Source: Hufsiella ginkgonis (GTDB lineage: Bacteria > Bacteroidota > Bacteroidia > Sphingobacteriales > Sphingobacteriaceae). From it: DNA of 64,000 nt. The notes beneath the pieces are model-generated. The model was not told where the DNA came from. It worked only from the letters and a program-made list of their open reading frames with translations, and made no database searches. Position numbers and translations under genes: made by a program. Each line of letters starts with the position of its first letter. The stretch's first letter is position 1. This document shows, piece after piece, positions 1-9,463 of the stretch. Location: the NCBI RefSeq assembly GCF_009834915.1, contig NZ_WVHS01000004.1, positions 1 through 64,000 of the forward strand, read 5' to 3'.

Positions 1-315
1 GGTGTGTATCCAGAAATTCAGAGCTTTCGGACTGGCTGGTTTTTGCGGTGCGCTGAATGCGTCGTCAAAGCGGATGATTTCCATTCGACTCAGTTGTGCC
101 AGAAATTTCTCCAGCAATTCCGGTGCGATGACCAGCTTGTCTGCAAGGGTAGCCAAATCGGTCACTCCGTCCACTTCTTGCAAAATTTCATACTGTCGCC
201 TGTTCAATACCCGAAACGAGTGCGGATATGAACAATTGACTGTATAGCCGTAATCGTCATTGATCAGGCCGGAGAGCAGTTCTGGCGATCTACGCGGCAC
301 TAAATCTTTAGTCAT
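1..315 (-). CDS. Radical SAM peptide maturase, N-terminal part (runs off the window)
   Basis: An open frame starts at ATG 313-315 on the minus strand and stays open to base 1, giving 105 residues with no stop. Residues about 40-80 (RRQYEILQEVDGV, then LATLADKL and LLEKFLAQLSRMEII) read as a winged-helix segment like the leader-binding domain found at the N-terminus of many RiPP radical SAM maturases. The visible end, LNFWIHT, is the kind of first beta strand that directly precedes the CxxxCxxC cluster motif in SPASM-type enzymes; that motif would lie outside the window. It follows a repeat-containing Cys precursor by 12 bases, so it is probably the maturase acting on that peptide. The family call rests on this short match and on context. 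A non-radical-SAM winged-helix protein cannot be excluded. Confidence 0.6.
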   Translation of the reverse strand, partial: MTKDLVPRRSPELLSGLINDDYGYTVNCSYPHSFRVLNRRQYEILQEVDGVTDLATLADKLVIAPELLEKFLAQLSRMEIIRFDDAFSAPQKPASPKALNFWIHT

Positions 316-327
316 CTTCAATAGTAA

Positions 328-570
328 TTAAGTTCCACAGTCGCAATTGGCATTAACGGTGGTCGCGTTCAGATAACCTTTGCCTCTGGCATTTTCAATC
401 ATTGTCACATCGTCAAACAGCATGTCGTTTTCTTCAATATCAACATCGCTGGAGCAATTGCAATCGGGGCTTAAATGGTTGGCATCAAAGCGCAGGTAAC
501 TTGCGCCTAGAGCGGTTTCAATGATTTCTGCATCATCAAACAGGATGTTGTTTTCGTTTGTGGTCAGCAT
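328..570 (-). CDS. Candidate RiPP precursor with two tandem C-X-C repeats
   Basis: An 80-residue acidic protein from ATG 568-570; a GTG at 592-594 would add 8 residues. It consists of two direct repeats. Residues 6-41 begin ENNILFDD and end in DCNCSS; residues 47-80 begin ENDMLFDD and end in NCDCGT. Both contain an I-E-x-A segment, a Gly and YL at equivalent positions. The only cysteines are C37, C39, C76 and C78, so each repeat ends in a C-X-C core. A small repeated Asp/Glu-rich protein with conserved Cys endings, placed 12 bases before a probable radical SAM maturase, fits a multicore ribosomally made peptide precursor in which the LFDD segment acts as recognition sequence and the C-X-C end is modified. 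The repeats are directly visible; the function is inferred. Confidence 0.6.
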   Translation of the reverse strand: MLTTNENNILFDDAEIIETALGASYLRFDANHLSPDCNCSSDVDIEENDMLFDDVTMIENARGKGYLNATTVNANCDCGT

Positions 571-586
571 AGCAGTTAATTTATCG

Positions 587-1240
587 TTAATCACGGTGTT
601 GTTTGTTCAGTCGGTTCATAAGAGCAAAAACCGTAGTCGGATGCCATTTTCCACCTTCTCGGAAAGTCGGTACACCTTTTTTATTCAGTTCGTTTGAAAC
701 TGCGCGAATGGAGATGATACCGCGTTTTCGCAGCCGCCGGATTACCGGGGACAACTTAGTTGCAAATTCTTCCGCGGCTTGCTTGTTGATAACGGATAGT
801 ATTTTGCCGTTCTTTCCAAGTTCAACGCCTCGTTTCCTTGCAGCGTTCAGCGCCTCTTTGGTCGTTTCACTAATTCGCTGGCGTTGATCCTGGGCGACAG
901 CCGCAAGAATGTGAATCGTCAATTCGTTCGCATGCGGATTATCCGCAACAACGATTTTTACTTTCGATTTGACAACCCCGGCAATTTGTTCCACATCCCG
1001 GCCAAGCCGGTCCAGCCTTGCCACAATCAGCGTTGCTTTATTTTTTCTGCAAAGTTCTAATGCTTCATACAATCCGGCTCGGTGTTTCCGGGTCGATTTT
1101 ACTTCTATCACCTCTGTGAGCAAGTCGAAACCGTTCGTATTGCAATAATGCTGCACCGCGCTTTGCTGGGCATCCAGCCCCAAACCGCTTTTGCCCTGCC
1201 TGCCAGTTGACACGCGATAGTATGCGATTGCATGCTTCAT
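587..1240 (-). CDS. Small serine recombinase (resolvase/invertase family)
   Basis: A 217-residue site-specific serine recombinase, translated from ATG 1238-1240; an in-frame extension to 1339 lacks the family fold and is probably untranslated. The nucleophile is Ser11 in YYRVST, and the active-site arginines lie in ARLDRLGRD (about residues 74-82). A helix follows (AVAQDQRQRISETTKEAL), then a basic C-terminal DNA-binding region ending in a short recombinase-type helix-turn-helix. It lacks the long zinc-ribbon/coiled-coil tail of large serine integrases, so it is more like a resolvase or invertase. Its stop codon lies inside the longer GTG-started form of the RiPP precursor, so the two may be co-transcribed or coupled. 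Whether it inverts, resolves or merely resides in an island cannot be told here. Confidence 0.85.
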   Translation of the reverse strand: MKHAIAYYRVSTGRQGKSGLGLDAQQSAVQHYCNTNGFDLLTEVIEVKSTRKHRAGLYEALELCRKNKATLIVARLDRLGRDVEQIAGVVKSKVKIVVADNPHANELTIHILAAVAQDQRQRISETTKEALNAARKRGVELGKNGKILSVINKQAAEEFATKLSPVIRRLRKRGIISIRAVSNELNKKGVPTFREGGKWHPTTVFALMNRLNKQHRD

Positions 1241-1461
1241 TGGCTGCCTCGTTGTGTTCATCATTAAACCATCGGCTATATTTGAGCAGATATTGATTAA
1301 AAATCGCTTACCGAGAAATACAAAGCCTCTGCAATTCAACGGCTTGGATTTGGCGTATTCCGGGGAAAAGCGGTTTTTCGTTAACGGGTTGAAGATGGTT
1401 TATTGATGTACAAATTTCATGAGGAAATTTGCAGTTCTTTTTATATCAGGGATGACACCAA

Positions 1462-1935
1462 TTGGCTCTCGCGCTTTCAATCCTCGCACTGCTGGCAACC
1501 TTTTATCAAGCTTATCTGCAACGCGTTCATAACGCGAAGTCGTTAAAGCCGCTTATTCAGATTGATGTGATGGACCGCAAACGCGTCATAAGCGTCCTGA
1601 TCCGTAACAACGGTGTCGGACCTTTCATTATCAAAAACGTCTCCTTTACAACGAAGGGCAAACATTTTTCCGAACTAGAAGAATGTTTAAACCTCAATCC
1701 ACGGTCTTATCAACATTACACGGTTTCAGAAACCGTCGATAAGGTCATTCAATCCGGGCAATCTCACATCGTTTTTTCAACAGAGTTTGAGCCGACTGAT
1801 ACGGGCAAGGACATCGACAATGTTAGGGATCAGCTATCAACCCTGGAACTGAAAGTTGAAGGCATTGACGTTTATGATAACAAGATCGTTGCAGTGCGAA
1901 ACCTGCTTTGGTTTAATCGGAAAAAGGGTTCATAA
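1462..1935 (+). CDS. Membrane-anchored protein of unknown function, possibly 5'-truncated
   Basis: The product is 157 residues. It opens with one hydrophobic helix (residues about 2-18, LALSILALLATFYQAYL), then a short basic stretch and a beta-rich soluble domain (LKPLIQIDV, VISVLIRNNGVGPFIIKNVSF). That pattern is common in small bacterial membrane proteins that have a cytoplasmic beta-sandwich behind a single anchor. The only in-frame start is TTG at 1462; the frame is closed by TGA at 1453, and an ATG at 1452 is in another frame. An N-terminal frameshift or truncation is therefore possible. The gene is unpaired, and no family can be named with confidence. Confidence 0.5.
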   Translation: MALALSILALLATFYQAYLQRVHNAKSLKPLIQIDVMDRKRVISVLIRNNGVGPFIIKNVSFTTKGKHFSELEECLNLNPRSYQHYTVSETVDKVIQSGQSHIVFSTEFEPTDTGKDIDNVRDQLSTLELKVEGIDVYDNKIVAVRNLLWFNRKKGS

Positions 1936-2139: not shown

Positions 2140-2188
<49 letters not shown>

Positions 2189-2320
2189 CGCGGCCAATAT
2201 GTTATATAGGAGGTTTAATGCAGATAGATAACATTCAATTTGTGTTATCAAAACAGGTATTTAGCCCACATGTAGCCTTTGATTGATATGTATCTCGATT
2301 ATCTGTTCTTACTTCCCAAA

Positions 2321-2340
2321 GTTGAACGAGGGTTGAACCG
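2321..2340 (+). repeat. Arm-type direct repeat, copy 2
   Basis: The second copy of the 20-base GTTGAAC-containing sequence seen at 2081-2100, with two mismatches. It ends 20 bases before the integrase ATG. It is a possible integrase arm site that could also let the integrase repress its own transcription. This is inferred from position only. Confidence 0.45.
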
Positions 2341-2360
2341 ATAATCTACGGAGAAATTAC

Positions 2361-3665
2361 ATGTCCAATACCATTGTCCAGTTTACCAAAGCCAACATCA
2401 AAGCATTACCTATTCCCCTACAAGGCCGAGTTTATTACAGAGACGCTCAACTGAAAGGGTTGTCGGTATGTGTCTTGCCGACGGGGCGAACAACCTTTTA
2501 CGTAATTAAGAAGGTTAATGGCGAAGCAGCCAAAATCTACCTAGGGCCGTTCCCTGACCTTTCAATTGAGAATGCTAGAAAGCAGGCACAAGTAAAACTT
2601 TCGCTCATCGCGCAAGGTATCAATCCCCAAGACCAAGTTCGCACTGCCAAAGAAGAAATGACCTTGGGCGAGCTATTTGAGCAATATATGAGCAGATACA
2701 GCAAGCTACATAAGAAATCATGGATATATGACGAACGGGAGATCCCGAGCTTTGTATCTCACTGGTTCGGAAAACGCATATCTAATATTTCACGAAATGA
2801 CGTCCAAAGTCTTCACGAAGAAATTTTCCTAAAGTCCGGTTTATACCAAGCCAATCGAATGCTTGAAAGAATTCGAGCTATGTATAACAAAGCAATCTAC
2901 TGGGGATGGCAAGGGCAGAATCCATGTGTAGGAATTAAGAAATTCAAGGAGAAATCTCGTGATAGGTTTGTTCAGCCTAACGAAATGCCGTATTTCATCC
3001 GCGCCTTAAATGAAGAAGAAAGTCAAACTATCAAAGACTACCTCTGGCTTTTACTATTAACCGGGGCACGAAAAATGAACACGATGATGATGCGCTGGGA
3101 TGAATTGAACCTTGAAACTCAAGAATGGCGTATTCCTGATACAAAAAATGGCGATCCATTATTGTTACCCCTAGCCTCGCAGGCGGTAACAGTTTTGAAG
3201 CGCCGCCGCGAGACATCAAAAAGTGATTGGGTTTTCCCCCAAGATGGAGATTTAAGTAAGCATATTGTAAACGAGAAGCGTGGATGGAAACGGACTCTGG
3301 AGAATGCCACAATCTATCTTTGGCGGGATCACTCAAATGTGTCATCTTGGTTGGAAGAAGTTGAGAGAAATGATGAGAACCCATATCACACCAGGCTTTT
3401 TAAACGCATTAATCAACGCGCCATGCAACAAAGCATTAAGTTGCCAGTCGGCTTAATGGATATTAGACTACATGATTTGCGGCGAACGTTTGGTAGTTAT
3501 CAAGCAATCGTAGGGGCGAGCCTCCAAGTTATTGGAAGAAGCTTAGGTCATAAGTCACTTCAATCGACTCAAATTTATGCTCGCTTACACCTTGATCCTA
3601 TTCGGGATTCAATAGGTAAAGCTACGCAGGCGATGCTTTACGGCTCTGAACTGAGTTCCACTTAA
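2361..3665 (+). CDS. int: Tyrosine recombinase integrase, DUF4102 type
   Basis: A 434-residue tyrosine integrase that would integrate and excise the island at a tRNA gene. Residues 1-95 form the N-terminal DUF4102 arm-binding domain (GLSVCVLPTGRTTFYVIKK, then IYLGPFPDLSIENARKQA). Residues about 100-190 are the SAM-like core-binding domain, and the rest is catalytic. The pentad is complete: R237 (TGARKMN), H371 and R374 (HDLRRTF), H397 (GHKSLQ) and Y406 (QIYARL). An insertion of about 60 residues (around 300-360) separates the first Arg from the HxxR box. A tRNA-fMet 3' fragment lies about 170 bases upstream. DUF4102 integrases are best known from proteobacterial tRNA-integrated islands, so their use here suggests an integrase module shared across phyla. 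Confidence 0.93.
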   Translation: MSNTIVQFTKANIKALPIPLQGRVYYRDAQLKGLSVCVLPTGRTTFYVIKKVNGEAAKIYLGPFPDLSIENARKQAQVKLSLIAQGINPQDQVRTAKEEMTLGELFEQYMSRYSKLHKKSWIYDEREIPSFVSHWFGKRISNISRNDVQSLHEEIFLKSGLYQANRMLERIRAMYNKAIYWGWQGQNPCVGIKKFKEKSRDRFVQPNEMPYFIRALNEEESQTIKDYLWLLLLTGARKMNTMMMRWDELNLETQEWRIPDTKNGDPLLLPLASQAVTVLKRRRETSKSDWVFPQDGDLSKHIVNEKRGWKRTLENATIYLWRDHSNVSSWLEEVERNDENPYHTRLFKRINQRAMQQSIKLPVGLMDIRLHDLRRTFGSYQAIVGASLQVIGRSLGHKSLQSTQIYARLHLDPIRDSIGKATQAMLYGSELSST

Positions 3666-3844
3666 TATACCTCCCGTAAATTTAGATAAAGAGCGTGAAT
3701 TTCGTTAAAGTACGACGATTTCATGCTCCTTAAAAATTCGGCAAGGATTTTAGCAATAAGCATTTAATGGTATATTGTATTTACGATTACTTTATTATAT
3801 AAACTATTAATAGCTTTACAGATTTACGCATCGGAAAATATTCA

Positions 3845-5119
3845 ATGAGAACGAGCCAAGCATTTTTGCAAAAATTTGATACTGAGGTTAATAAAGATTG
3901 GTCGTTTGCTGAGAGCAGGTCTGTTGAACACCTAACACACGGCTATCATCGCTATCCTGCAAAATTTGTTCCGCAATTAGTAAAAAAGTTAATTGAGACC
4001 TACACCCAAAAAGGCGACAAAATCGTCGATGTTTTTGCGGGTTGCGGCACCACTTTAGTCGAAAGCAAGGTTCATGGTAGGACTTCTGAAGGGGTTGATA
4101 TCAATCCGGTCGCTGAACTTATCACAAGAGCAAAGATTACAGCTATTGAGCCGAAGAAGCTTCAGAAACGCTATGAAAGAATTCAATCGGCAATCCAGGG
4201 ATATGAGCCATTCAGAGTAGCAGCGCCGGAGAAGCACCCTCGAATTGATTATTGGTTTCGGGAAGAAGAGAAGGATAAGATTGCCTTTCTATATCATATC
4301 ATCTTGCCGATCCGAGATGAGCATTTAAGAGATTTTTTTCTTTGTGCATTGTCAAACATCCTGAAAAACTGTTCAAGGTGGTTACAATCGAGCACAAAAC
4401 CACAAATAGATCCTATTAAGGTAATTAGGGAACCCTTTGCGGCTTTCGAATTTCAAGTAAAGCGAATGTTAAAAAAGAACGGGCAGTTTTATGAAGAATT
4501 GTCCAATAATAAAGCGCTTAATGTAAAATGCAAAATCCGTCTCGCTGACGCCCGCAGAACGAAGATCAGAGCTAACTCGGCGAATGCGATTATAACATCC
4601 CCCCCGTATGTTACATCGTATGAATATGCTGATATTCATCAGTTGACAGGATATTGGTTTGATTATATTGCCGATATTACCTCGTTCAGAAAAGATTTTA
4701 TTGGCACCTTCTATTCAAACAATAAAGAAACAGAAACAATTGTTCCCATTGCTCAGGAAATCGTACAAAGGCTTATAGCGATAGATAAAAAAAGCGCAGG
4801 TGAAGTCGCTAACTATTTTAATGACATGTTTGCCGTGGCAACAGAAATGCGGAGAATACTAAAGCCAGGTGGAGTTGTCTGTATGGTGGTTGGCAACACA
4901 ACAATGAAGGGAGTTAAAATAACTTCCGCTGAAGCTTTTGCTCAAATGCTTTCGATGCAAGGGTTAAAGATTGAGAATGTAATTAAGAGAGAAATCCCTT
5001 TTAAATTGATACCTACAATTAGAGACAAGAAAACTGGTAAGTTTACTACCTTGGACAGCAAAAACAAGAAGTTAGTCTATCCAGAAGAATTTATAATAGT
5101 CGCACGAAAAAAGGTTTAA
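3845..5119 (+). CDS. DNA methyltransferase of a MORC/Z1 restriction-modification operon
   Basis: A 424-residue SAM-dependent DNA amino-methyltransferase (N4-cytosine or N6-adenine). The SAM-binding motif is DVFAGCGTT (residues about 59-67), preceded by HGYHRYPAKFVPQL, a conserved lead-in of this methylase group. The catalytic motif is TSPPY (about 253-257). The late strand GVVCMVVGN also belongs to the Rossmann fold. Its TAA directly abuts the ATG of the next gene (TAAATG), so the two are translationally coupled. Within the operon it should protect host DNA from the nuclease encoded downstream. The recognition site cannot be read from sequence. The 180-base AT-rich gap upstream presumably carries the operon promoter, although no clear consensus was found. 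Confidence 0.9.
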   Translation: MRTSQAFLQKFDTEVNKDWSFAESRSVEHLTHGYHRYPAKFVPQLVKKLIETYTQKGDKIVDVFAGCGTTLVESKVHGRTSEGVDINPVAELITRAKITAIEPKKLQKRYERIQSAIQGYEPFRVAAPEKHPRIDYWFREEEKDKIAFLYHIILPIRDEHLRDFFLCALSNILKNCSRWLQSSTKPQIDPIKVIREPFAAFEFQVKRMLKKNGQFYEELSNNKALNVKCKIRLADARRTKIRANSANAIITSPPYVTSYEYADIHQLTGYWFDYIADITSFRKDFIGTFYSNNKETETIVPIAQEIVQRLIAIDKKSAGEVANYFNDMFAVATEMRRILKPGGVVCMVVGNTTMKGVKITSAEAFAQMLSMQGLKIENVIKREIPFKLIPTIRDKKTGKFTTLDSKNKKLVYPEEFIIVARKKV

Positions 5120-7585
5120 ATGGATCTCCGTAATATAGGCACCAGAATTGATGATATTCCTGTAAAAATTAGCTACAAAATCATCGAGCTATTTTCAGGG
5201 GGCTTATATTCGAGTCCTAATAAGGCGTTTGAAGAATTAGTCAGTAATTCCTACGATGCTCGTGCAACAAACGTTGCAGTATATATTCCTGTAGATCGCC
5301 TGAAGGAAAACTCTACTCTGTGGGTATGTGACAACGGCGACTCGATGGACCGCGAAGGCTTAAAATCACTTTGGAAGATCGGTGAGTCTCCTAAAAGTGG
5401 GGAACGAAAAAACGGAGATCGGCTTCAGATCGGCAAATTTGGTATAGGCAAACTAGCAACTTATATCCTCACCTATAAGCTGACTTATATTTGCAAAACA
5501 GCGGAGGGCTATTTTGCAGTAACAATGGATTACAGCAATATACATGAATCCACCGAGCAGCTAATCTTAGATGAAATCCAGTTAACGGAAGAAGAAGCGA
5601 AAACTCTCATTAAGCCATACACCGCAGTCAGCGGAAAAAACCTTGTCCCATTTGAAATGTGGGGAACTGCTTCGGAGCCTACATGGACTTTTACAATCAT
5701 GTCCAAGCTGAAACCAAAAGTGGGTGAGATACAGGAAGGCCGGCTGAAATGGATTTTATCAACTGCGTTACCTCTTAATCCAAACTTTAAACTTCACTTT
5801 AACGGCGCCGAACTACAGTCGAGCAAGGAAAAAACCAAAATCTTACAATCGTGGATTTTCGGCCAAGATGATGCAATAGTCGATAGGAATAAAGAATACA
5901 CAATTGGTGAGTATTTAGGAAAACCCTGTGTAAATCTGCCAAACTTATCAAATGTTGTTGGCCAGGTTGACTTGTATAAGGAATCATTAGTCAAAACCAA
6001 AGCCGATGATTGGGGACGGAGCAATGGTATATTTCTGATGGTTAGAGGCAGGCTTGTGAACCTAGAAGCAACATTGCCAGGGATGAGTGCATTATCACAT
6101 GGTATTTTCAACAGGATAAGAATTACTGTTCATGCTGATGAACTAGATGATTATATTACCTCAACACGCGAGAACATTAAAGATTCGCTGCCTTTCGAAG
6201 ACCTGAAAAGATATATACAGAGAAAATTCACAGAGGCAAAAGAGTACTATTTCAATTTAATCGAAGAGGAAGAACGCCTAAATTTAGCTTCCTACAAAGT
6301 AGCTCGCGCTTCTTCTGGCTTGTCAAGACGTCCGTTTCTAGTAGCTGCTCGAAGAATTTTTTCTGGGGAGATTAGTAATCTTGTTTTAACGGACATCCCA
6401 GAAAGACTAACAGCACAAGAGAAACAGGAAATCATTAAAGAACTTGAAGACAGCCTTTCTGGTGAAGCCGCGGTTATTAAAGAAATTAAGTGGGCTGCAC
6501 TAAAACCAGAAGACCCTATCGCTAAATTTGACTTACTTTCAGGTGTCGTGCGGGTAAATATAATGCACCCGTTCTTTGCTAATTTTATTGAGGATATTAA
6601 AAGTAAGCTCCCATTCGAGTTATTTGCCGTAACAGAAGTTATCACCGAAGTGTCGTTAATTGAGCAAGGTGTCAGCGAAGAAGATGTCAGAGAAATAATC
6701 TATCGGCGTGATCGTGTACTACGGGAACTAACTTTCAGTGATAAGCAGAACGCACCTGCTGTTGCAGCATTATTGAGAGCAACACTCAATGATCCTGATG
6801 GCTTAGAGGATTCTGTAGAGAAGTCATTTAAAACTCTAGGCCTCGAAACGACACCGATTGGTGGAAATGGAAAACCAGACGGTAAGGCAGTAGCTTACTT
6901 GGAGCATCGCGGGTCGAAAGAGAATTACTCTTTTACCTATGACTCCAAAAGCACCTCAAAAGATCGAATAATGGCAAGTACTGCCCACATTTCAGGTGTG
7001 GACAGACATCGAAGAGATTATGAGGCAGATTTTGCTGTCATCGTAGCCATAGATTATCAAGGGGCAGAAGATCCGAATTCGGCAATAAACAAAGAAGCCA
7101 AACATTCGAAGGTCACTTTGATACGAGCAAGTGATTTATGGAGCCTAATTTTATCTGCGGCCCCTAAGCAACTAGGACTAAAGAAACTACGTGAGCTGTT
7201 TGAGACTTGCCATACAGTAATTGAAACATCTAAATGGATTGACGATATCAAAAACTCGACTGTTGACCAAGGGCCAGTGAAAGAAATTCTCGAAACTGCT
7301 TACGACTTAATACGTAATGATACCGAAAGGCCTAACATAACAGCTCTCAGATTAACCATTAAGTCGAAATATCCCCATCTTAAAGATATAACCTCAGAAC
7401 AGATCAAGATTCACATACAGAGTTTGAAGACTATCGTGCCGAACTATATAACATTCGAGAATGACGAGATTGGGCTTCAAAACACGCCAGCAATAATTCT
7501 TGCGCAGATAAATCAGATTTCTTCTGACACGAATATTCCTTTTGAATTTAGGGATATTTTTATTCAGGCATTTAGTCAAAAATAA
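5120..7585 (+). CDS. MORC-like GHKL ATPase fused to a PD-(D/E)XK-like nuclease
   Basis: The product is 821 residues. The N-terminus is a Hsp90/MutL/MORC-type ATPase: the N-box FEELVSNSYDA supplies N43, then DNGDSM (residues 71-76) and GKFGIGKLA (105-113) form the nucleotide lid. The usual central Gly of DxGxGM is Ser here. A helical middle follows. The C-terminal part (about residues 580-680) has GKPDG, beta strands and YDSKST, the spacing of a PD-(D/E)XK nuclease fold. MORC-like ATPases joined to nucleases and encoded with methylases and Z1 helicases are known as predicted restriction systems. This would be the ATP-driven restriction subunit. The nuclease assignment is motif-level only. Confidence 0.8.
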   Translation: MDLRNIGTRIDDIPVKISYKIIELFSGGLYSSPNKAFEELVSNSYDARATNVAVYIPVDRLKENSTLWVCDNGDSMDREGLKSLWKIGESPKSGERKNGDRLQIGKFGIGKLATYILTYKLTYICKTAEGYFAVTMDYSNIHESTEQLILDEIQLTEEEAKTLIKPYTAVSGKNLVPFEMWGTASEPTWTFTIMSKLKPKVGEIQEGRLKWILSTALPLNPNFKLHFNGAELQSSKEKTKILQSWIFGQDDAIVDRNKEYTIGEYLGKPCVNLPNLSNVVGQVDLYKESLVKTKADDWGRSNGIFLMVRGRLVNLEATLPGMSALSHGIFNRIRITVHADELDDYITSTRENIKDSLPFEDLKRYIQRKFTEAKEYYFNLIEEEERLNLASYKVARASSGLSRRPFLVAARRIFSGEISNLVLTDIPERLTAQEKQEIIKELEDSLSGEAAVIKEIKWAALKPEDPIAKFDLLSGVVRVNIMHPFFANFIEDIKSKLPFELFAVTEVITEVSLIEQGVSEEDVREIIYRRDRVLRELTFSDKQNAPAVAALLRATLNDPDGLEDSVEKSFKTLGLETTPIGGNGKPDGKAVAYLEHRGSKENYSFTYDSKSTSKDRIMASTAHISGVDRHRRDYEADFAVIVAIDYQGAEDPNSAINKEAKHSKVTLIRASDLWSLILSAAPKQLGLKKLRELFETCHTVIETSKWIDDIKNSTVDQGPVKEILETAYDLIRNDTERPNITALRLTIKSKYPHLKDITSEQIKIHIQSLKTIVPNYITFENDEIGLQNTPAIILAQINQISSDTNIPFEFRDIFIQAFSQK

Positions 7586-7612
7586 TCCATAGGTTTTGTA
7601 AAGAGGGTATGC

Positions 7613-9463
7613 ATGTTTAATTTAAAGGAACTTAAAAAAGAAACTACGAGCAATAATCGCTATGAAAGAAGGCTTGCAAAATTGGTTGCCGCAGGGCAAG
7701 AAACCAACAGAATTAGCGCTGTGGTGGAAAACGCCATACAGAATATAAAAGGTAATCAGAAATCTTTCGTCATATATGGCGAACCTCAAAGCGGTAAAAC
7801 CGAGATGATGATTGCACTCACTTCAAAACTGCTAGATGAGGGGTTTAAAATAATTGTCGCTCTATTGAATGATAGCGTTCAATTATTAGGGCAAAACCTT
7901 GAAAGATTTCAACGTTCTGGGCTTTCTCCTTCACCTAAAAAATTCAGTGAGATACTGTCTCCTGAAGTAAAAATAGGAAACCATCAATGGGTAATATTTT
8001 GCAAGAAGAATTCGAAAGATTTGCAGAAGCTAATTCAAAAGCTTAACGGTACTTCCCAGGTGGTCGTTATTGACGATGAAGCTGATTATGCTACGCCAAA
8101 CTCCCAAGTTAATAACGCAGAAAAAAGCCAAATCAACAGGCTCACTGGAGACTTAATAGGCAAGACTGGTATTTATATCGGCGTCACAGCTACACCAGCT
8201 CGACTAGACTTAAATAAAACTCATGACAACCAAAATGAGCATTGGATCGATTTTCCGCCTCACTCCAACTACACAGGGCAGGATATTTTTTTTCCGATAA
8301 ATTTGAGTAGTCTGCCTTATCGGCTTACCTTTTTACCAGATACAGGCGACGATCCTAAATATTTAAGAGAGGCTCTATTCAGCTTCATGGTTAACGTAGC
8401 ATATCTGAACAGTTCCGTTAACACTGTCGATACTAATTATTCGTTATTGATACACACAAGTGGGAAGAAGGCAGACCACTCGGTAGATTACAAACTCATA
8501 ATAAAAATCTTTGAAGCGTTAATTGACGAGACAAATCCCAATCACTCACAATACTTGCATAAGATTTGGGACATAGCAAAAGAAAGGTATTCTGGTTACG
8601 AGGAACATATTACCAAGTATATTATTGCCAACTCAGACCGCAATAACGTAGTCGTGATGAATAGCGATAAAGAGGTAAACGCTGCGGATAATAGAACCGC
8701 GACGGATCCGACCGCACCGTTTACGGTTATCATTGGCGGCAATATCGTTTCTAGGGGCGTCACTTTTAATAATTTGCTTTCAATGTTCTTTACAAGAGAC
8801 GTAAAGCACAAGTTGCAACAAGATACTTATATTCAGCGAGCTAGAATGTTCGGATCGCGTGGTGCATATCTTAAATATTTTGAGCTAACAATCCCTAAAT
8901 CACTGTTCTTGGACTGGCAAAAGTGTTTTATTTTTCACAGATTATCGTTAGAGTCACGCAAGCAAGATAAGCGTTCTCCTGTTTGGTTAGATGGCCAAAG
9001 AATTACGGCAGTAGCAAGTGCTAGCATTGATAAGACCAACGTCCTTATAGATAAAGGGGAAATGAGCTTCAATCTCTTCGATTACAGTGAAGCAGATATA
9101 CTAGAAGTGCTTAACCAGAAAATTAAACCTGTTTTAAAGGCTAAAGCTTTATCTACCCTTTTAGGGAAAGATTTTTTTCCGGAATACTTGATCAGTTATA
9201 TTGAAAGTTTTTCGCCATCAGGCGACAGTTCGTTGGCAATCCATTCACCTAAAAGCATTGCTAACTATGCTGATAAAGAAAATGAAACAGATAAAGCAAC
9301 GATCACTCGTACCAGAGGTTTCATTGGTAATCGTGAAATGGAGCTTACAAAATTCCCTAACGCCATCCACCATATTAATATCCTCTTTAATGAGCACGGG
9401 AGAGCCCGTGTTTTTTATAAGTATCAAGGTAATATTCGCTTTCTAAAAACGGTAAAGAAATGA
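7613..9463 (+). CDS. Z1-domain superfamily 2 helicase/ATPase
   Basis: A 616-residue Z1-domain protein. Visible motifs are Walker A GEPQSGKTEM (about residues 56-65), the DEAD-like box VIDDEADY (about 152), motif III VTATPARL (about 193), NIVSRGVTFNNL (about 382) and the arginine-finger region QRARMFGSRG (about 408). These in this order define the Z1 family, which accompanies MORC-type GHKL ATPases and methylases in predicted restriction-modification loci. It probably translocates on or remodels DNA for the nuclease subunit. It lies 27 bases after the GHKL gene and overlaps the next gene by four bases (ATGA), so it is the third cistron of the operon. Confidence 0.88.
   Translation: MFNLKELKKETTSNNRYERRLAKLVAAGQETNRISAVVENAIQNIKGNQKSFVIYGEPQSGKTEMMIALTSKLLDEGFKIIVALLNDSVQLLGQNLERFQRSGLSPSPKKFSEILSPEVKIGNHQWVIFCKKNSKDLQKLIQKLNGTSQVVVIDDEADYATPNSQVNNAEKSQINRLTGDLIGKTGIYIGVTATPARLDLNKTHDNQNEHWIDFPPHSNYTGQDIFFPINLSSLPYRLTFLPDTGDDPKYLREALFSFMVNVAYLNSSVNTVDTNYSLLIHTSGKKADHSVDYKLIIKIFEALIDETNPNHSQYLHKIWDIAKERYSGYEEHITKYIIANSDRNNVVVMNSDKEVNAADNRTATDPTAPFTVIIGGNIVSRGVTFNNLLSMFFTRDVKHKLQQDTYIQRARMFGSRGAYLKYFELTIPKSLFLDWQKCFIFHRLSLESRKQDKRSPVWLDGQRITAVASASIDKTNVLIDKGEMSFNLFDYSEADILEVLNQKIKPVLKAKALSTLLGKDFFPEYLISYIESFSPSGDSSLAIHSPKSIANYADKENETDKATITRTRGFIGNREMELTKFPNAIHHINILFNEHGRARVFYKYQGNIRFLKTVKK

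Follow-up and report, generated by a model that had tools for sequence, protein, structure and literature searches.

Introduction

In a 2022 survey of radical SAM (rSAM) proteins in J Biol Chem, a predicted RiPP pathway was reported as Cluster 59, with its modification and product given as uncharacterised (PMC9062424). As described in that survey, it comprises three genes, which encode a recombinase, an rSAM protein and a peptide that contains as many as six repeats of Asp-Cys (PMC9062424). The enzymes PapB and QhpD join Cys to side-chain carbons of Asp or Glu (PMC9413430, PMC8326336). PapB links even directly adjacent Cys and Asp, incompletely (PMC9413430), and the NxxcA peptide contains a bond from Cys to the beta carbon of Asn (PMC8326336).

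Here we analysed a stretch of 64,000 nucleotides from Hufsiella ginkgonis (assembly GCF_009834915.1, contig NZ_WVHS01000004.1), called the window below, whose base 1 is the end of the contig (contig C20). The window holds all three genes described for Cluster 59, with the maturase present as a fragment. The 40 loci related to it resemble that description as well, having a recombinase in 26 of 40, an rSAM protein, and an Asp-Cys (DC) peptide in 40 of 40, including one (L081) with six DC. We infer from this match by description that the gene set is Cluster 59, a kind that is already reported. The main text of the survey is without a membrane protein, recombination sites, a docking ruler, a two-unit chain or gene fusions (PMC9062424); new relative to that main text are the two-unit chain, a spacing rule, a membrane partner, the sites, the boundary of the unit and the fusions. 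We consider it likely that the window carries a compact rSAM RiPP cassette of this Asp-Cys kind on a serine-recombinase unit, composed of the following features.

1..315, minus strand: N-terminal 105 residues of an rSAM/SPASM peptide maturase (identity to the N-termini of the family; contig end)
328..570, minus strand: predicted two-unit RiPP precursor (ORF, self-alignment, homologue profile)
331..432, minus strand: unit 2 of the precursor, ENDMLFDD ... NANCDCGT (alignment of halves)
337..348, minus strand: core motif of unit 2, N-C-D-C (alignment of halves, family motif)
448..555, minus strand: unit 1 of the precursor, ENNILFDD ... SPDCNCSS (alignment of halves)
454..465, minus strand: core motif of unit 1, D-C-N-C (alignment of halves, family motif)
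587..1240, minus strand: small serine recombinase (Pfam Resolvase, E 9e-25; 27-sequence alignment)
1255..1289, minus strand: dyad site II, CTGCTCAAATATAGCCGATGGTTTAATGATGAACA (conservation across the recombinase loci, 25 of 26)
1377..1414, minus strand: dyad site I, TTTGTACATCAATAAACCATCTTCAACCCGTTAACGAA (conserved with the recombinase; start of the homology between L072 and L079)
1462..1935, plus strand: membrane-anchored Ig-like protein, fourth gene of the cassette (homologues in the loci, model)

Results

A tandem-duplicated putative precursor

The precursor ORF encodes 80 amino acids on the minus strand, with its ATG at 570 and its stop codon at 328-330 (MLTTNENNILFDDAEIIETALGASYLRFDANHLSPDCNCSSDVDIEENDMLFDDVTMIENARGKGYLNATTVNANCDCGT). 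Alignment of unit 1 with unit 2 gave a score of 75 while the maximum of 5000 shuffles was 47, and the leader halves of both units are alike in DNA too, indicating that the 80-residue chain is a tandem duplication of two homologous units. A sequence-only reading of this DNA had proposed just such a duplication at 328-570, in which each unit opens with E-x-N-x-x-LFDD and all cysteines sit in the terminal motifs; the translated ORF bore this out, with four Cys residues that all fall within DCNC and NCDC. The C-x-C core named in that reading is likewise present in both window units, but the core conserved across the family turned out to be Asp/Asn-Cys (92 of 98 core Cys). Read off the sequence, the distance from LF to Asp-Cys is 26 residues in each unit. 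A profile of precursor homologues, in which the window precursor is itself one row, matched both units (328-438, E 1.8e-14; 430-570, E 1.1e-11).

In all 40 loci, a frame of 36-87 residues with LF[DN][DE] followed by [D/N]-Cys lies immediately before the maturase gene (three of the 40 frames are the end of a longer ORF); in 25 of them the 3' end of this frame runs into the beginning of the maturase gene. Sixty-eight of the 98 core Cys residues follow Asp and 24 follow Asn, against a background of 12% Asp and 9% Asn among residues. Within the precursors, conservation is strongest in the docking stretch, and LF is separated from the first core DC by 24-26 residues in most loci. Core types range over one DC (YGDCGN), pairs (YNDCTNNFNDCTNN), CDC and the six DC of L081, with a single core Cys in L045 and two well separated ones in L047 and L048. 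The multiplication of units varies among the homologues: two precursors stand in tandem in L076, L064 has a second docking stretch without Cys, and L068 places three Cys-x-Cys pairs behind one docking stretch. Judged by these arrangements, units have been multiplied in several ways, of which the two-unit chain of the window is one.

Over 251 family genomes, the precursor profile matched the same nine that hold the maturase, plus one extra marginal match (E 0.009) outside the maturase genomes. That match apart, no precursor homologue was seen without the maturase with which the sequence-only reading had paired it. Pfam has no family for the precursor, and NCBIfam gave one chance-level match of one member. 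Neither an exporter nor a leader peptidase is encoded as a conserved neighbour of the maturase.

The maturase fragment and its complete homologues

The window maturase ORF opens at 315, with 12 bases between it and the precursor stop, and leaves base 1 after ...LNFWIHT; as the contig ends there, the reading cannot be extended to the left. Its 105 residues correspond to an RRE-like winged helix, with the predicted rSAM core falling beyond the contig end, and they share 52-60% identity with the N-termini of the nearest complete rSAM/SPASM members of the family. The spacing of 12 bases and the winged-helix-plus-LNFWIHT composition are as first read from the letters, and the accompanying guess of an rSAM SPASM maturase gained support through homologues. 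Used as a query against 250 further genomes from the family, the fragment found matches in 8, all with a complete gene except one that is frameshifted. TN(A/S/K)CNLxCxYCY, with the CxxxCxxC of the rSAM core, and the SPASM cysteine set C...GxxxxC...CxxCx5CxxxC...C occur in all eight aligned complete homologues, while the window copy ends before the CxxxCxxC; no aligned homologue was found to be without the radical SAM motif.

A contig-database search with the 105-residue fragment alone gave no match. A wider search with the homologue alignment yielded the 40 close loci at 46-100% identity to the query, after which identity falls sharply to 22-34%, and rSAM proteins in this lower range (L085-L124) were excluded as other families. 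The 40 loci span Mucilaginibacter, Pedobacter, Spirosoma, Runella, Dyadobacter, Larkinella, Siphonobacter, Emticicia, Arcicella, Algoriphagus, Flavobacterium and others. No relatives turned up in IMG/VR, phage or plasmid records, so that residence on a phage or plasmid is not supported. One cassette (L055) lies on a contig binned as Phycisphaerales (Planctomycetota), to be explained by horizontal transfer or else by misbinning of a Bacteroidota contig.

A model of the L036 maturase (pLDDT 75 overall, mostly 83-96 in the N-terminal 80 residues, poor in the SPASM loops) starts with strands followed by helices. It aligns over nearly its whole length with CteB, the maturase of the SCIFF ranthipeptide (5wgg/5why; Z 20.0, from residue 9), and with TigE (8vpo; Z 19.5, from residue 2). 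The shared fold includes the N-terminal leader-binding domain, although identity to both enzymes is 15-16% and the substrate motif is another. By this model, family maturases possess a predicted N-terminal leader-binding-type domain (RRE). Thus the cysteine motifs in eight of eight homologues, the CteB/TigE fold and a precursor adjoining the gene in 40 of 40 loci all speak for the proposed rSAM SPASM maturase.

PapB and QhpD were the top named NCBIfam families for all eight maturases tested, at about 100-140 bits versus cut-offs of 340-453; the PapB family NF047865 scored 102.7-139.6 bits where shown, below its curated cut-off of 340. The maturases here are like those of the PapB/freyrasin ranthipeptides in being rSAM/SPASM maturases for which PapB, together with QhpD, is the best NCBIfam match and Cys-Asp chemistry is plausible. 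They are unlike them in score (103-140 bits against 340) and in substrate: the C-x3-D/E spacing of PapB precursors is not conserved in these precursors, whereas D/N-Cys is.

Contig C22 opens with a second copy of the cassette, which shows 88% identity across some 460 bases and breaks off at the same codon. This copy is damaged, its precursor being without the first unit and carrying a deletion inside LFDD. We infer that repetition of the gene broke the assembly, with contigs ending where the two gene copies become too alike to assemble. The radical SAM profile matches 15 other proteins in the genome of the window; there, the maturase-family profile found nothing beyond the N-terminal fragments of the two copies and a single decayed piece, and the core in no other contig.

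A membrane-anchored Ig-like protein accompanies the maturase

Homologues of the fourth gene product are present in 39 of the 40 loci and are mostly 155-190 residues long, with one N-terminal membrane helix followed by a beta sandwich (model pLDDT 91). The gene sits downstream of the maturase in most loci; in the window, in Arcicella and in the majority of Mucilaginibacter loci it is divergent and lies upstream of the recombinase. The helix is followed by basic residues, which suggests a cytoplasmic Ig-like domain. Strong matches among 201 family genomes occurred only where the maturase is present, and the Ig-like protein is probably a partner of the cassette product, to judge from this distribution. 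It has no Pfam or NCBIfam family, and a fold search returned generic Ig-like matches only (Z <8).

Downstream of the maturase, AbiE modules lie between two copies of the Ig-like gene in L056, L061, L074, L076 and L080; Fic occupies the corresponding place between copies in L071 and L084, and a DUF4143 ATPase does so in L052. The two Ig-like copies are each other's nearest relatives in L076, L080 and L084. It looks as if the AbiE, Fic and ATPase modules enter by duplication of the Ig-like gene.

Serine recombinase, dyad sites and the limits of the mobile unit

The recombinase ORF is open to 1339 with a conserved start near 1240, and its product contains the motifs YYRVS, STRK and DRLGRD. A small serine recombinase exists in 26 of the 40 loci in addition to the window, and the catalytic Ser/Arg motifs are conserved throughout the alignment of 27 rows. 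Sites I and II are imperfect dyads of about 34-38 bp located upstream of the recombinase in 25 of these 26 loci and in the window. Their start-to-start distance is 125 bp in the window and usually 125 bp elsewhere (115-128), and loci without the recombinase are also without both dyad sites. The site II pattern, which was fitted to its own family, is unique in the window with 0 expected. The catalytic motifs, and a pair of dyads preceding the gene, are features shared with resolvase/invertase-type serine recombinases that have paired sites; unlike those, there are only two sites here, on one side, and they are tied to a RiPP gene set.

In a Siphonobacter pair with different flanks (L072 and L079), homology extends from site I to the membrane protein gene. 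These limits indicate a moving unit that, on the comparison of the two sequences, is made up of the sites, recombinase, precursor, maturase and membrane protein. A search for a second recombination site at the right end of this unit found none. Along the maturase tree, the recombinase switches between present and absent at least four times, which fits a recombinase acting as a vehicle rather than as part of the core. An invertible promoter or phase inversion is not supported, with only one weak inverted site candidate (L055, +1951). In three loci, the recombinase and precursor form one in-frame ORF of 284-285 residues with no stop codon between them (L060, 7199-8053; L061, 3971-4828; L071, 7199-8053).

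Discussion

We propose that the ENxxLFDD stretch of the precursor would dock on the fused winged-helix domain of the maturase, and that docking would place the [D/N]-Cys about 26 residues downstream, a constant spacing, in the active site. By extension from its nearest named relatives, the maturase would then most likely form a thioether that joins the sulfur of Cys to a side-chain carbon of the Asp/Asn next to it. Given the PapB/QhpD chemistry, the adjacent Cys-Asp linked by PapB and the Cys-Asn link of NxxcA, a thioether at Asp/Asn-Cys is our best guess, but as an exact bond it is tentative and may well prove otherwise. The duplication gives the window chain two docking-plus-core units, so that two cores, each having a docking site of its own, could be modified on one polypeptide. 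The membrane-anchored Ig-like protein, given its co-occurrence, would probably bind the product as an immunity factor or effector. Since cassettes without the recombinase keep the other genes, the recombinase and its two dyad sites would serve in moving or resolving the cassette and not in making the peptide. Against this proposal stand PapB/QhpD matches far under the curated cut-offs and the want of a conserved exporter or leader peptidase neighbour, which is unusual for a secreted RiPP. In addition, the core of the window maturase is absent from the assembly, leaving its integrity as a prediction while the second genome copy is broken, and the route of recombination is obscure with no site at the right end.

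The missing exporter and peptidase, together with neighbouring Cys and Asp that could bind metal, would also suit a small metal-binding or redox peptide that is not a RiPP, with the rSAM protein acting on another substrate. However, the solitary core Cys of L045, the well separated pairs of L047 and L048, the docking stretch as the best conserved part and genes that overlap or abut and strictly co-occur make this reading hardly credible. A further reading, an addiction or defence module, gives the proposed cassette a more specific function and does not contradict it: the modified peptide would be a toxin, the membrane protein would be the antidote or the target, and the module would stabilise the mobile unit together with its neighbours. 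The membrane protein co-occurring in 39 of 40 loci and the AbiE toxin-antitoxin, Fic or ATPase genes between duplicated membrane-protein genes in several loci point in this direction, as do CRISPR Cas6, DNA methylases and integrases among the further neighbours. Such neighbours are nevertheless typical of any genomic island, and we regard this role as possible but rather unlikely.

The fused ORFs, in which the precursor is the C-terminus of the recombinase, raise the possibility that recombinase and peptide cooperate, a modified Asp-Cys tail regulating or targeting the recombinase and the maturase thereby tuning DNA mobility. The precursor directly behind the recombinase in recombinase loci and the conserved catalytic motifs of the latter agree with such cooperation. 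By contrast, 14 of the 40 loci keep the precursor and maturase (13 of them also the membrane protein) without recombinase or sites, the fused ORFs retain a Met inside them, where the precursor normally begins, that makes separate translation possible, and recombinase presence changes several times on the maturase tree, so that we find cooperation improbable. We judge it highly improbable that the modified peptide is part of the recombinase unit, with the maturase modifying a fused tail or a co-translated controlling peptide; if true, radical SAM chemistry would govern the movement of a mobile element.

Read as an Asp-Cys RiPP cassette on a recombinase unit, an orphan entry among the Asp-Cys rSAM peptides becomes a testable four-gene system by virtue of the spacing of about 26 residues, a two-unit chain with two docking sites, a near-obligate membrane partner and a defined mobile unit. 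The system lets one ask what bond is formed at Asp-Cys, whether processing of one core is independent of the other on the same chain, and whether the membrane protein acts as immunity factor, receptor or target.

Among the maturase genes, there is a frameshift in L073 and one in-frame stop in L064, which suggests that some cassettes are decaying. The decayed second cassette in the genome of the window (L003, 1-940; C22, 10576-10758) consists of the truncated precursor with its LFDD deletion, a membrane-protein remnant and a separate maturase fragment. Beyond the Ig-like gene of the window, a sequence resembling a tRNA 3' end (2145-2172), not called as a tRNA, lies ahead of a tyrosine integrase-like ORF (2361-3665). 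Positions 2145-9463 also hold a DNA methylase, an ATPase-like protein and a type II-system-like helicase, and this region is probably an integrated restriction-like island adjoining the RiPP cassette.
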